Positions 24,017-63,437 of a DNA stretch of 64,000 nucleotides are shown here, piece by piece. The DNA is from Sphingomonas vulcanisoli (GTDB lineage: Bacteria; Pseudomonadota; Alphaproteobacteria; Sphingomonadales; Sphingomonadaceae), in assembly GCF_011761305.1 (NCBI RefSeq), contig NZ_JAAOZC010000005.1, positions 62,001 to 126,000 on the forward strand. Direction: 5' to 3'. Numbering within the stretch: position 1 is the first letter of the stretch; each line of letters begins with the position of its first letter. Made by a program: the position numbers and the translations under genes. Below the pieces are notes generated by a model, which worked only from the letters and a program-made list of their open reading frames with translations, did no database searches and was not told the origin of the DNA.

Positions 24017-24094
24017 CTGAGCCTGTCGAAGGACTGTCCTTCTCCTCGACGCAAAGAACAAAGCAGGGCTTCGACAAGCTCAGCCCGAGCGGAG
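24017..24094. repeat. Inverted-repeat element, family E (CTGAGCNTGTCGAAG)
   Basis: The arms CTGAGCCTGTCGAAG (24017-24031) and CTTCGACAAGCTCAG (24069-24083) are inverted, with one mismatch. The right end continues CCCGAGCGGAG, and its GGAG forms the scpA SD. A second copy of the family lies at 51796-51880. Confidence 0.85.
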
Positions 24095-24100
24095 TTGCTT

Positions 24101-26383
24101 ATGTCGGCCGAAAATAAGCCCAACCTGGATCAATGGTCCGCCGCCGCCGCCAGGGAGGTGAGGGGCAAAGACCTCACCTGGGCGACGCCCGAGGGGATCA
24201 ACGTCAAGCCGCTGTACACCGCCGAAGATACTGAAGGCTGGGATCCCGGCCTGCCCGGCTTCGCGCCGTTCACGCGCGGCGTCCGCGCTTCGATGTATGC
24301 GGGCCGTCCGTGGACGATCCGCCAATATGCGGGCTTCTCCACCGCCGAGGAATCCAACGCTTTCTACCACCGCAATTTGAAGGCGGGGCAGAAGGGCCTG
24401 TCGGTCGCCTTCGATCTCGCTACGCACCGGGGTTATGACTCGGATCACCCCCGCGTTACCGGCGATGTCGGCAAGGCGGGCGTGGCGATCGATACGATCG
24501 ACGATATGAAGATCCTGTTCGACGGCATCCCGCTCGATCAGATGTCTGTCTCCATGACGATGAACGGCGCGGTGATCCCGATCCTCGCTTTCTTCATCGT
24601 CGCGGGAGAGGAGCAGGGCGTGCCGCGTGCGCAGCTCGACGGAACCATTCAGAACGACATCCTCAAGGAGTTCATGGTCCGCAACACATACATCTACCCG
24701 CCCGAACCCTCGATGCGGATCATCTCGGACATTTTCGCCTACACCAGCCGCGAGATGCCCAAGTTCAACAGCATCTCGATCAGCGGCTATCATATGCAGG
24801 AAGCCGGCGCGACGCAGGTGCAGGAGCTAGCCTTCACCATCGCCGACGGCCGCGAATATGTGAAATACGGCGTCGCATCGGGCCTCGATATCGACAAATT
24901 TGCCGGGCGGCTGAGCTTCTTCTTCGCGATCGGCATGAATTTCTTCATGGAGATCGCCAAACTGCGCGCCGCGCGCGTGCTCTGGCATCGGGTGATGACC
25001 GATCTCGGCGCCAAGGATGAGCGCAGCAAGATGCTCCGCACCCACTGCCAGACTTCGGGGGTCAGCCTGACCGAGCAGGATCCCTACAACAACGTTATGC
25101 GCACCACGATCGAGGCGATGGCGGCGATGCTAGGCGGCACCCAGTCGCTCCACACCAACGCGCTGGACGAGGCGATCGCGCTACCAACCGATTTCTCCGC
25201 CCGCATCGCGCGAAACACGCAGCTGGTGCTCCAGGAGGAGACCGGCATGTGCAATGTCGTCGATCCGCTGGGCGGCAGCTATTATATCGAGAGCCTGACC
25301 AAGGAGCTGGTCGACAAGGCCTGGGCAATTATCGAGAAGGTCGAGGCCGATGGCGGCATGGCCAAGGCGGTCGCCGCGGGCTGGCCCAAGGCGATGATCG
25401 AGGAAGCCGCCGCCGCCACCGCCGCGCGCATCGATCGCACCGAGCAGGTGATCGTCGGCGTCAACAAATACCGCAAGGACAATGAGGATCCGATCGAGAT
25501 CCTCGATGTCGATAACGTCGCGGTGCGCGAGGCGCAGATCCGGCGGATCCAGGCCGTGAAGGCCGGGCGCGACGAGGCTGCTTGCACGGCGGCGCTCGAT
25601 GCGCTGCGCGAAGGTGCGAGGCGCGGACAAGTTCCTCCCCTGCAAGGGGAGGGGGACCAGCCGCACGCTGGTGGAGGGGTATCCCCCCTCTCGCGTGGCG
25701 ACACCCCTCCGTCATCGCTCAGCGATGCCACCTCCCCCGCCGGGGGAGGATTTGAGAACAACCTGCTCGCCCTCGCCGTGGAATGCGCCCGCGCCCGCGC
25801 CACGCTCGGCGAAATCAGTCTGGCGATGGAGGATGTGTTCGGCCGCTACGGCACAACGCCGACGCCGGTGCAGGGCATCTATGGCGGCGCCTATGGCGAC
25901 GATGCGCGCTGGATCGGCCTCAAGGACGGTGTCATCTCGGTCGGCCGGATCAAGGGCCGCGCGCCCAGGATGTTCGTCGCCAAAATGGGGCAGGACGGCC
26001 ATGATCGCGGTGCCAATCTCGTCAGCTCGGCGTTCGGCGATCTCGGCTTCGATATTCTCGCCGGACCGCTGTTCCAGACGCCAGCGGAAGCGGCGCGGAT
26101 GGCGATCGAAAATGATGTCGATGTCGTCGGCGCTTCCTCGCTCGCAGCGGGCCACAAGACTTTGATTCCCGAGTTGATCGGCCACCTCCGCGAGGCAGGG
26201 CGCTCAGACATCAAGGTCATCGCCGGCGGCGTGATCCCCGCGCAGGATTATCAGGCGCTGCGCGACGCCGGCGTCCAGGCGATCTTCGGCCCCGGCACCA
26301 ATCTCGTCGCCGCCGCCGAGGAAGTCCTCAAGCTGCTCGGCCACAACATGCCGCCCGAGGATATCAGCGAGGCGGCGGAGTGA
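24101..26383 (+). CDS. scpA: Methylmalonyl-CoA mutase (B12-dependent), with in-frame repeat insertion
   Basis: This 760-residue enzyme rearranges (R)-methylmalonyl-CoA to succinyl-CoA with adenosylcobalamin. The catalytic barrel covers about residues 1-500 ([28 protein letters not shown]), and the C-terminal B12 domain has [10 protein letters not shown] near residues 629-637, with the cobalt-ligand His of DxHxxG. Residues about 511-550, in the linker between domains, are encoded by a family A palindromic element and are Pro/Gly/Ser-rich. Without them the protein has about 720 residues, the usual length of single-chain mutases. The ATG has GGAG six bases upstream, supplied by a family E element. 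It sits between the hydratase and pccA on one strand. Confidence 0.95.
25633..25750. repeat. Palindromic element, family A, translated inside scpA
   Basis: The ends are TCCTCCCC (25633-25640) and GGGGAGGA (25743-25750). Internal blocks GGGGAGGGGGACC, GGTGGAGGGG, CCCCTCCGTC and GCCACCTCCCC occur in the same order in the copy at 57951-58080. One reading frame is free of stops and continues the mutase frame on both sides. Confidence 0.9.
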
Positions 26384-26390
26384 TCTCTTC

Positions 26391-26483
26391 CCGTCATGCC
26401 GGACGTGTTCCGGCATCCACCCATCAACTTGAGCCGTCGGTGCTTGTGGCACGGTGGACCCCGGAACACGTCCGGGGTGACGG
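26391..26483. repeat. Inverted-repeat element, family H, between scpA and pccA
   Basis: CCGTCATGCCGGACGTGTTCCGG (26391-26413) and the complement of CCGGAACACGTCCGGGGTGACGG (26461-26483) match at 21 of 23 bases. It fills the gap between scpA and pccA. Confidence 0.85.
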
Positions 26484-26499
26484 TCACCTGGAGCAATAA

Positions 26500-62326: not shown

Positions 62327-62334
62327 CCTCTACC

Positions 62335-62411
62335 GTGCTCCGGCGAAGGCCGGAGCGTTGGAGGCTTGCGCCGCATATCCATCTCCAGCGCTCCGGCCTT
62401 CGCCGGAGCAC
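62335..62411. repeat. Inverted-repeat element, family G
   Basis: GTGCTCCGGCGAAGGCCGGAG and CTCCGGCCTTCGCCGGAGCAC are inverted arms. The sequence CCAGCGCTCCGGCC is shared with the copy at 41334-41409. It lies between the convergent ends of ccmB and the rRNA methyltransferase. Confidence 0.88.
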
Positions 62412-62416
62412 GGGCT

Positions 62417-63283
62417 TCAGTCGCGCACCCATCTCGCAAAGATCGCCGTCGGCAGCAGCAGCCCGCGCGCCTCTTCGCGTACCGCCATCTCGCCGACCTC
62501 GACGCGCCCACCGAGATCGCCCAGCGCCTGTTCCAGCAGCGCCCCGATCGCCAGCGCCGACATGCGCACCGCATAGACCGTCAGCACCAGATATTTGGAT
62601 CGCTCGTCGAGCAGCCGCCGACAATGCTGGATCAAGCCGGCGAGATGCTCCTCCAGCCGCCAGACCTCGCCGTCGGGGCCGCGCCCGAATTTGGGCGGAT
62701 CGAGCAATATGCCGTCATAGCGCCGCTCGCGCCGCACCTCGCGCGCCGCGAACTTCACCGCATCGTCCACCATCCAGCGGATCGGGCGATCGGACATGTC
62801 GGAGAGGAAGGCGTTGTTCTTGCCCTGCTCGACCGATTTCTTGCTGGCATCGACATGCGTGACCTTGGCCCCCTTGCCCGCCAGCGCGAGGCTGCCGACG
62901 CCGGTGTAACCGAACAGGTTGAGCACCTCATCGTCCTCCCCCGTGCGATCGCGCATCCACGCCCATTGCGGCGCCATGTCGGGAAAAAAGGCGAGGTGGC
63001 GGAAGGGGGTGTTCTGCGCGGTGAAGCGCAGCTCCTCCCAGCGGACATGCCACCCGCCGCGCGAGACATCGCGGGAGAGCTGCCAGCGGCCGCCGCCATC
63101 CTCGTCCGAAGCCGGGATGAAATCGCCATCGGCTTCCCAGGAGAGCGACGCGGGCGCCCACATCGCCTGTGGCTCGGGCCGAATGAAGCGGAAGCGGCCG
63201 AAGCGTTCGAGCTTTCGCCCGTGACCGGAATCGATCAGGCCGTAATCGTCCCATGGTTCGGTGACGAGGGTGAGCAGGCTCAT
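62417..63283 (-). CDS. Class I SAM-dependent rRNA methyltransferase (RlmI/RlmK-like)
   Basis: This 288-residue methyltransferase has the SAM motif VLNLFGYTGVGSLALAGKGAKVTHVDASKKSV and the catalytic LLDPPKFGRG typical of the RlmI/RlmK-type C5-cytosine or related rRNA methylases, but it lacks the N-terminal PUA domain of RlmI. An N-terminal region with WEADGDFIPASDEDGGG precedes. ATG 63283 has GGAG five bases upstream, formed by the end of a repeat element. Confidence 0.85.
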   Translation of the reverse strand: MSLLTLVTEPWDDYGLIDSGHGRKLERFGRFRFIRPEPQAMWAPASLSWEADGDFIPASDEDGGGRWQLSRDVSRGGWHVRWEELRFTAQNTPFRHLAFFPDMAPQWAWMRDRTGEDDEVLNLFGYTGVGSLALAGKGAKVTHVDASKKSVEQGKNNAFLSDMSDRPIRWMVDDAVKFAAREVRRERRYDGILLDPPKFGRGPDGEVWRLEEHLAGLIQHCRRLLDERSKYLVLTVYAVRMSALAIGALLEQALGDLGGRVEVGEMAVREEARGLLLPTAIFARWVRD

Positions 63284-63437
63284 CCCCTCTCCCCCCGGGG
63301 GAGAGGGAGGGGCCCATCGCGCAGCGATGGGAGGGTGAGGGTGGGTGAGACAGAAAACGCTGGCGAGTGGTGATCTCGACTCACCCTCTCCCGACCGTCG
63401 CTACGCGACGGCCACCCTCTCCCCCGAGGGGAGAGGG
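63284..63437. repeat. Inverted-repeat element, family C
   Basis: Ends CCCTCTCCCC (63285-63294) and GGGGAGAGGG (63428-63437) are perfect inverted repeats, identical to those at hemW. Internal hairpins CCCATCGCGCAGCGATGGG and CCGTCGCTACGCGACGG are present. It fills the gap between the M16 peptidase stop and the methyltransferase start. Confidence 0.88.

Follow-up and report, generated by a model that had tools for sequence, protein, structure and literature searches.

Dispersed palindromic repeats of several described kinds are the closest counterparts of the inverted-repeat elements considered here, which lie directly upstream of seven genes (scpA, hom, hemW, yraN, gshB, an osmolyte permease gene, and an RNA methyltransferase gene, hereafter MTase) in a 64,000-nt stretch of the Sphingomonas vulcanisoli genome (contig NZ_JAAOZC010000005.1, C5:62001-126000; the window). 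Repetitive extragenic palindrome (REP) doublets forming hairpins, or REPINs, are dimers of inverted palindromic units, and S. wittichii and S. alaskensis, whose REPs are relevant below, are sphingomonads. The available portion of Di Nocera et al. 2013 (PMC3733652) describes CGTC and GTAG REPs as palindromic units occurring mostly as inverted dimers, with the CGTC-1 units of S. wittichii situated near the 3' ends of upstream open reading frames (ORFs) and at varying distances from downstream ORFs. Some REPs are located wholly within ORFs, which in S. alaskensis and E. litoralis include those encoding tRNA synthetases and TruB, and differing REPs occupy about one site in two Xanthomonas recB genes; the same source cautions that REPs placed at an N-terminus may lie outside the gene. 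Rickettsia palindromic elements (RPE; Ogata 2000, 2002, as summarized in the accessible parts of PMC10969869 and PMC3733652) comprise several families of palindromes that have entered unrelated genes in frame, yielding repeat-encoded peptides. Mycobacterial interspersed repetitive units (MIRU), as presented in the accessible part of PMC12548453, carry an ORF coupled with a spacing of -4 and insert at start codons.

When compared to the CGTC/GTAG REPs as far as described there, the window repeats share the inverted dimers, the stop-side placement, the intragenic copies, and the occurrence of different repeats at the same site. In contrast, the ends of the four families in the window (B, C, E, and F) do not show the CGTC...CCA or GTAG layout, and E and F repeats end in ACGAACGG. 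As in RPE, multiple palindromic families are found in frame within unrelated genes, whereas most of the sampled ends here are intergenic (376/430, with 47 in a called gene and 7 at an edge) and the DNA is GC-rich (65%). As with MIRU, a repeat is situated at a former stop/start overlap with each gene keeping its stop and start (MTase, yraN, permease, hemW); MIRU bring their own coupled ORF, whereas the window repeats were not found to share an ORF of this kind, and at yraN the upstream gene rsmI itself reads through. At the MTase and permease genes, a long open frame crosses the repeat and terminates at the TGA overlapping the start codon, and such frames are common in this DNA. The REPINs of PMC3116915, in the part available, form a small dispersed repeat family like the repeats here. 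The nearest models are RPE for in-frame insertion and MIRU for insertion at start codons. Intragenic REPs have been published before, and what most deserves following is that different families re-use the same loops and junctions. Among the titles and abstract openings listed in the literature search, none dealt with repeat ends acting as Shine-Dalgarno (SD) sequences in sphingomonads, which is no proof of absence, and the accessible part of the S. granuli paper contained nothing on these repeats.

The original prediction held that the last bases of the repeats form the SD of the seven genes and that the repeats are recycled as portable translation signals. Re-reading the sequence confirmed the coordinates of all seven SD-like motifs (Table 1), and the inverted arms were confirmed for four of the repeats. 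The interpretation itself was upheld only in part and for the most part failed. We consider it likely that REP-like or RPE-like palindromes settle in dispensable DNA and that their SD likeness is mostly a by-product or a native signal, which corrects an attractive but mostly coincidental reading. Start-codon calls beside GC-rich palindromes are unreliable, as one and the same repeat may resemble an SD or an extension of the protein at either its N- or its C-terminus.

Placement of Repeat Ends Relative to Genes

The source genome (3.27 Mb, 17 contigs) was sampled in 137 stretches around repeat matches together with the window, amounting to 1.13 Mb or 35% of the genome, in which a home-made hexamer caller that did not score SDs predicted 1051 genes. 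The stretches were picked around listed repeat matches, and all counts hold for the sampled stretches. The caller set the permease start at 59703 and placed the yraN repeat inside rsmI, leaving two of the seven genes outside the near-start tallies.

Among the 430 outermost repeat ends, 148 faced a start and 228 faced a stop. Repeat ends were not enriched at SD spacing (5-12 nt) from starts in the 1.13 Mb sample, with 29/148 start-facing ends at this distance compared to 87/228 stop-facing ends; a preference for start codons was therefore not borne out, and this is largely the result that the original prediction had named as speaking against it. In tandem gaps with both ends seen (n = 72, first 803 kb), repeat ends lay at a median of 18 nt from starts and 13.5 nt from stops. 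The B/C ends lay nearer than the E/F ends at starts and at stops alike (on the stop side, 57 B/C ends at ≤10 nt and 20 at 11-20 nt, against 45 and 58 E/F ends), and since the same shift appears on both sides, the closeness of B/C ends is no SD effect. The start-side shift between B/C and E/F (Fisher p = 0.009) was considered as proof of SD supply and rejected, given the similar shift at stops, because it reflects where the repeat ends were drawn. Likewise, the SD-bearing B/C repeats were not significantly better tolerated near starts than E/F repeats in the sample (ratio of odds ratios; across ten settings, z ranged between -1.04 and +1.49); the positive z at 4-6 nt is the sole hint in favor of the original prediction in this comparison. 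An excess of GTG/TTG starts near repeats was also tried and rejected (17/59 vs. 215/954 elsewhere, p = 0.27).

Shine-Dalgarno Anatomy and Accessibility

The repeats are dispersed multi-copy inverted dimers of palindromic hairpin units, with family median lengths of 79 to 127 bp. In the genome, the B pattern gave 80 forward and 77 reverse matches (two mismatches allowed) and the C pattern 62 and 62 (no mismatches), counts that largely represent identical places as both hairpins are near-palindromic; the E pattern gave 71 and 70 and the F pattern 61 and 69 (one mismatch each), mostly corresponding to the two arms of one dimer. A consensus drawn outward from 96 E arms and 92 F arms runs to ...ACGAACGG, and the near-start ends of B (GGGGAGGGG) and C (GGGAGAGGG) contain GGAG and GAGG themselves. 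Because the E/F repeats stop at ACGAACGG, half of the GGAG(G) at scpA, hom, and gshB belongs to the repeat and half to the flank. The statement that the last bases of the repeat form the SD consequently stands for B/C ends and not for E/F ends, where the repeat supplies GG only and AG(G) belongs to the flank.

A repeat end was located ≤20 nt upstream of 59 genes, in 16 of which the best SD lay only in the repeat (B 8/12, C 8/13, E 0/14, F 0/20); in the others the SD straddled the repeat end (14), was found in the flank only (14), or was missing (15). Where E/F repeats abut starts, an SD is retained: AG, GAG, or GGAG follows 7 of the 11 E/F ends lying ≤10 nt from a start, compared to 38/235 other E/F ends (p = 8e-4), which would be expected were native SDs left intact. 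Among the 954 genes away from repeats, only 408 carry an SD-like 4-mer, and an SD is therefore optional in this genome.

Folding predictions assigned the SD an unpaired probability of 0.00 at yraN, the permease gene, and MTase, 0.06 at hom, 0.24 at scpA, and 0.27 at gshB, while the value of 0.26 at hemW refers to an AAGG match chosen by the script. Family means were 0.17 for B (n = 11), 0.23 for C (n = 12), 0.25 for E (n = 7), and 0.29 for F (n = 14), compared to 0.35 for 120 control SDs sampled among 392 other SD-bearing genes. The SDs of B and C combined were predicted to be less accessible than the controls (p = 0.004). If anything, B and C repeats would bury their SD, and the accessibility to be expected of a repeat serving as a portable ribosome-binding site was not seen in the predicted folds.

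Table 1. Genes, repeat dimers, and SD-like motifs in the window (positions counted from its first nucleotide).
Feature	Position	Strand	Remark
E-family inverted-repeat dimer upstream of scpA	24011..24092	+	only final GG in SD GGAG
scpA SD-like motif (GGAG)	24091	+	
scpA, methylmalonyl-CoA mutase	24101..26383	+	frame open through repeat to ATG 23993
In-frame dispersed repeat in scpA	25622..25757	+	lies between the mutase and B12 domains (residues ~508-552)
F-family dimer upstream of hom	36254..36333	+	GGAGG straddles: GG repeat, AGG flank
hom SD-like motif (GGAGG)	36332-36336	+	
hom, homoserine dehydrogenase	36348..37643	+	ATG start
Ancestral-type hemW start, ATGA overlapping rdgB stop	50524..50526	+	in frame, open through C repeat
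C-family dimer following the rdgB stop and preceding the hemW body	50538..50678	+	encodes possible N-terminal extension
hemW SD-like motif (GGGGAGAGGG)	50669-50678	+	
hemW body	50683..51792	+	TTG 50683 aligns with same-genus Leu codons
B-family dimer at rsmI/yraN	53920..54087	+	rsmI reads through to TAG 54091-54093, repeat-encoded C-terminal extension
yraN SD-like motif (GGAGG)	54081	+	
yraN	54093..54446	+	GTG start overlaps rsmI stop (TAGTG); GTG ancestral
F-family dimer upstream of gshB	54475..54541	+	GGGAG straddles repeat end and flank
gshB SD-like motif (GGGAG)	54540	+	
gshB, glutathione synthase	54552..55508	+	ATG start
Osmolyte ABC permease-like gene	58255..59769	-	TTG; best family matches do not reach curated cut-offs
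B-family dimer between ABC ATPase and permease genes	59774..59898	-	SD-like GGGGAGGGG fully paired in predicted hairpin
Permease SD-like motif (AGGGG)	59780	-	
RNA methyltransferase-like gene	62417..63283	-	ATG directly after repeat; family matches below curated cut-offs
C-family dimer at MTase junction	63284..63437	-	SD fully paired in predicted hairpin
MTase SD-like motif (GGAG)	63292	-	

Gene Junctions in Same-Genus Genomes

The junctions were compared with 18 stretches from five same-genus genomes (individual genomes are given by handles such as G001). At the tandem junctions of the window that hold a repeat (six with data), 13 of the 22 relative junctions had a gap of at least 70 nt, compared to 4/22 at repeat-free junctions (nine with data); gaps of this size may contain other genes, for example in the 748 nt at hemW of G006. 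A recognised repeat or inverted repeat was present in relatives in 9/22 cases at the former and 2/22 at the latter. According to the reading-frame check, genes of repeat-free relatives overlap by 4 nt at the MTase (3/5), yraN (3/5), and permease (2/4) junctions; hemW in G004 likewise shows a 4-nt overlap. In the window, the stop/start overlap of the relatives at yraN, the permease gene, and MTase is separated by the repeat.

Three unusual start codons had been regarded as replacements of lost originals, which fits the permease alone, where TTG stands against ATG in 4/4 relatives. The yraN GTG is ancestral, as it also occurs in 4/5 relatives: in G002, G003, and G004 it forms a 4-nt overlap with the rsmI stop, and in G006 it follows a C repeat with the rsmI stop kept, while G001 has an ATG 10 nt past the stop. 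At 53920-54093 of the window, rsmI is without its ancestral stop and runs on through the B repeat, its TAG now overlapping the yraN GTG. For hemW, the TTG at 50683 corresponds to a Leu codon (CTC or CTT) in 5/5 same-genus relatives with data (G001-G004 and G006). The hemW start of relatives overlaps the end of rdgB, by 4 nt in G004 (GTGA) and by 16 nt in G002. In G003 and G001, where hemW carries E repeats, no in-frame ATG, GTG, or TTG exists between the repeat and the conserved body, so these copies would be read through unless an unusual start codon is used. As judged from its reading frame, the window hemW need not use the repeat SD at all, an upstream ancestral-type start being kept in frame.

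The permease junction is a 4-nt overlap in G004 and G002, and the stop-start distance reaches 241 nt in G001 and 136 nt in G003. The G003 junction (L154) bears what looks by eye like a CGTC-like repeat, CGTCATCCTGAA...TTTCAGGATCCA, unlike the B repeat of the window. At MTase, a 4-nt ATGA overlap is found in G004, G002, and G001, a C repeat in G006 as in the window, and another repeat in G003.

The comparison of gene starts with orthologues revealed a native SD at gshB and, clearly in one relative (G003), at scpA. Without a repeat, the gshB junction has its own SD in G002 (GGAGG) and G006 (GGGAG); in G004 an E repeat is followed by AAGGAG beyond the repeat, and in G003, G001, and the window part of the SD falls within the repeat and part beyond its end. 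These alignments indicate that the gshB SD is at least partly native. The gshB gene of G006 (C222:22345-23155; L106, L107) was recovered as two overlapping matches missing residues 121-160, a gap that may represent a frameshift, a deletion, or an assembly error in an incomplete genome. In G003, scpA shows GGAGTT a few bases past the repeat end, and its SD is probably at least partly native too. For hom, G005 has GGGAGAAG without a repeat; its SD is perhaps at least partly native.

A repeat end of GGAG type was counted by us in 7/10 genome cases at the junctions with an overlapping ancestor (hemW, yraN, MTase, permease), excluding the unclear insert at the permease junction of G001, and in 0/4 at the gshB junction. 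It is conceivable, if rather improbable, that repeats entering coupled, SD-poor overlapping pairs survive mainly when an SD-like end is supplied or the frame is kept, with B/C repeats sorted to such pairs and E/F repeats to junctions with a native SD. If this were true, the initiation mode of a junction would filter repeat families, and the same junctions and loops would be re-used by different families, species after species.

Competing Explanations

Under the preferred explanation, repeats would accumulate right after stops and in junctions up to the native signals of the downstream gene, and would also insert within genes, keeping the frame, where loops, linkers, or ends of proteins are encoded. 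The B/C ends would be G-rich hairpin arms containing GGAG/GAGG through composition, and at E/F ends a native SD that was kept would supply the AG(G) completing the terminal CGG of the repeat. We infer tolerance as the cause of this placement. At yraN, the permease gene, and MTase, the only genes where the sole well-spaced SD-like sequence lies in the repeat, a repeat-borne SD may act although it is predicted to be fully paired; held in a stable predicted stem, it would make initiation weak or dependent on ribosomes melting the stem, as rsmI ribosomes translating the repeat up to TAGTG could do at yraN. Several points weigh against this explanation. MTase and the permease gene are without another SD, and the permease start has changed. 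The GGAGTT of scpA in G001 is preceded by GATGAACGG, itself resembling a repeat end, and scpA in G006 and G004 has other repeats and no GGAGTT; at hom, G001 and G003 have repeats without GGAGG. The SDs of E and F combined were not significantly less accessible than controls in the folding prediction (p = 0.14), and at ≤4 nt from starts, B/C ends were somewhat less depleted, with 6/60 cases compared to 1/88 for E/F (ratio of odds ratios, z = 1.49). The frame through the repeat is closed in 28 of the 59 near-start genes; therefore, many of these repeats cannot be read through. Finally, the gene starts are predictions of our own caller, and the folding predictions ignore ribosomes.

That the repeat ends are portable SDs replacing lost or displaced native ones seems quite unlikely, even though all seven genes have an SD-like end at a workable spacing, the repeat splits gene pairs that overlap in repeat-free relatives (MTase, yraN, permease), so that a new signal would be useful, and the best SD of 16/59 near-repeat genes is confined to the repeat. 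The sample contains no enrichment at starts, the SD-bearing families are not significantly more tolerated there, the SD is hidden in a predicted stem, and, with an SD-like 4-mer missing from most repeat-distant genes, an SD is not compulsory; moreover, a native SD or start is available at gshB and hemW, and probably at scpA. What stands of the portable signal is its potential role at yraN, the permease gene, and MTase. Translation of the repeats from a kept upstream start, giving N-terminal extensions at hemW and perhaps at scpA and gshB as it gives the rsmI C-terminus, is a tentative alternative with a reasonable though lesser chance of being right. The hemW frame is open from the ATGA start at 50524 through the repeat, the hemW copies of G003 and G001 offer no ATG, GTG, or TTG after the E repeat, and internal in-frame inserts indicate that repeats can be translated. 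Nevertheless, stops close the frame in nearly half of the near-start genes as given above, a start codon upstream of the repeat was found in only 12/59 (30 codons searched), and open frames are common in shuffled GC-rich DNA. When all six frames were considered, F repeats had 5.20 frames open compared to 4.14 in shuffles, a clear excess, and C repeats 3.59 compared to 3.03, a slight one; B and E repeats did not exceed their shuffles. It is unlikely, in turn, that the repeats are kept as RNA hairpins for 3'-end protection, attenuation, or the uncoupling of operon neighbors, with SD likeness irrelevant. Repeat ends hug stop codons and strong hairpins are predicted, yet the patchy distribution between species and the presence of different families at one junction argue against a kept function.

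Repeats within Proteins

A repeat overlapped 28 called genes, with a coding score above 10 on both sides in 12. Ten of these 12 were matched to NCBIfam, namely leuS, valS, ileS, glyS, coaBC, truB, metH, an ABC-F ATPase, ccmA, and oligopeptidase B, the last with a match below the cut-off. The ccmA-like frame (window 60540-61688) contains a single C hairpin at 61347-61368. Solved homologues of ScpA, ValS, TruB, and IleS are without the repeat stretch, and those of LeuS and CoaBC have gaps at the insert; absence of the insert was established against same-genus genomes for ScpA, ValS, and LeuS, and against solved homologues only for IleS, TruB, and CoaBC. As expected of RPE-like elements, these alignments place in-frame repeats inside conserved genes whose orthologues lack them, their retention in the protein being predicted. 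They also indicate that some junctions and protein loops (ValS, LeuS, the ScpA linker) hold different repeat families depending on the species. Such re-use of the same junctions and loops within one genus offers a natural series on the insertion tolerance of operons and essential enzymes.

The scpA insert is absent from G001, G004, and G006, and its region matches 34 other places in its own genome (38 matches). The closest named ScpA relatives among the orthologues listed belong to Sphingomonas species. In the 47 of 80 orthologues inspected (L235-L281), the ScpA linker measures 66-84 aa in eight, compared to 34-38 in the rest, and the long linkers carry different peptides (L237, L238, L239, L256, L275, and L280; the kind is less clear in L263 and L264).

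The LeuS loop before TTRPDT (L169:1785-4349; L323-L329) bears differing repeat-like inserts in 3/6 readable genomes (S. vulcanisoli, G005, and G006) and is free of them in G001, G003, and G004; the loop pattern gave no match in LeuS of G002. The ValS loop after TLGWP (L211:1109-4111; L315-L322) is without an insert in G001, where it spans 20 aa from motif to motif. Its peptides, assigned to families by likeness, are of E/F type in S. vulcanisoli, G005, and G003, of C type in G002, and of E type in another frame in G004. A possible second insert was observed at ValS residues 425-485.

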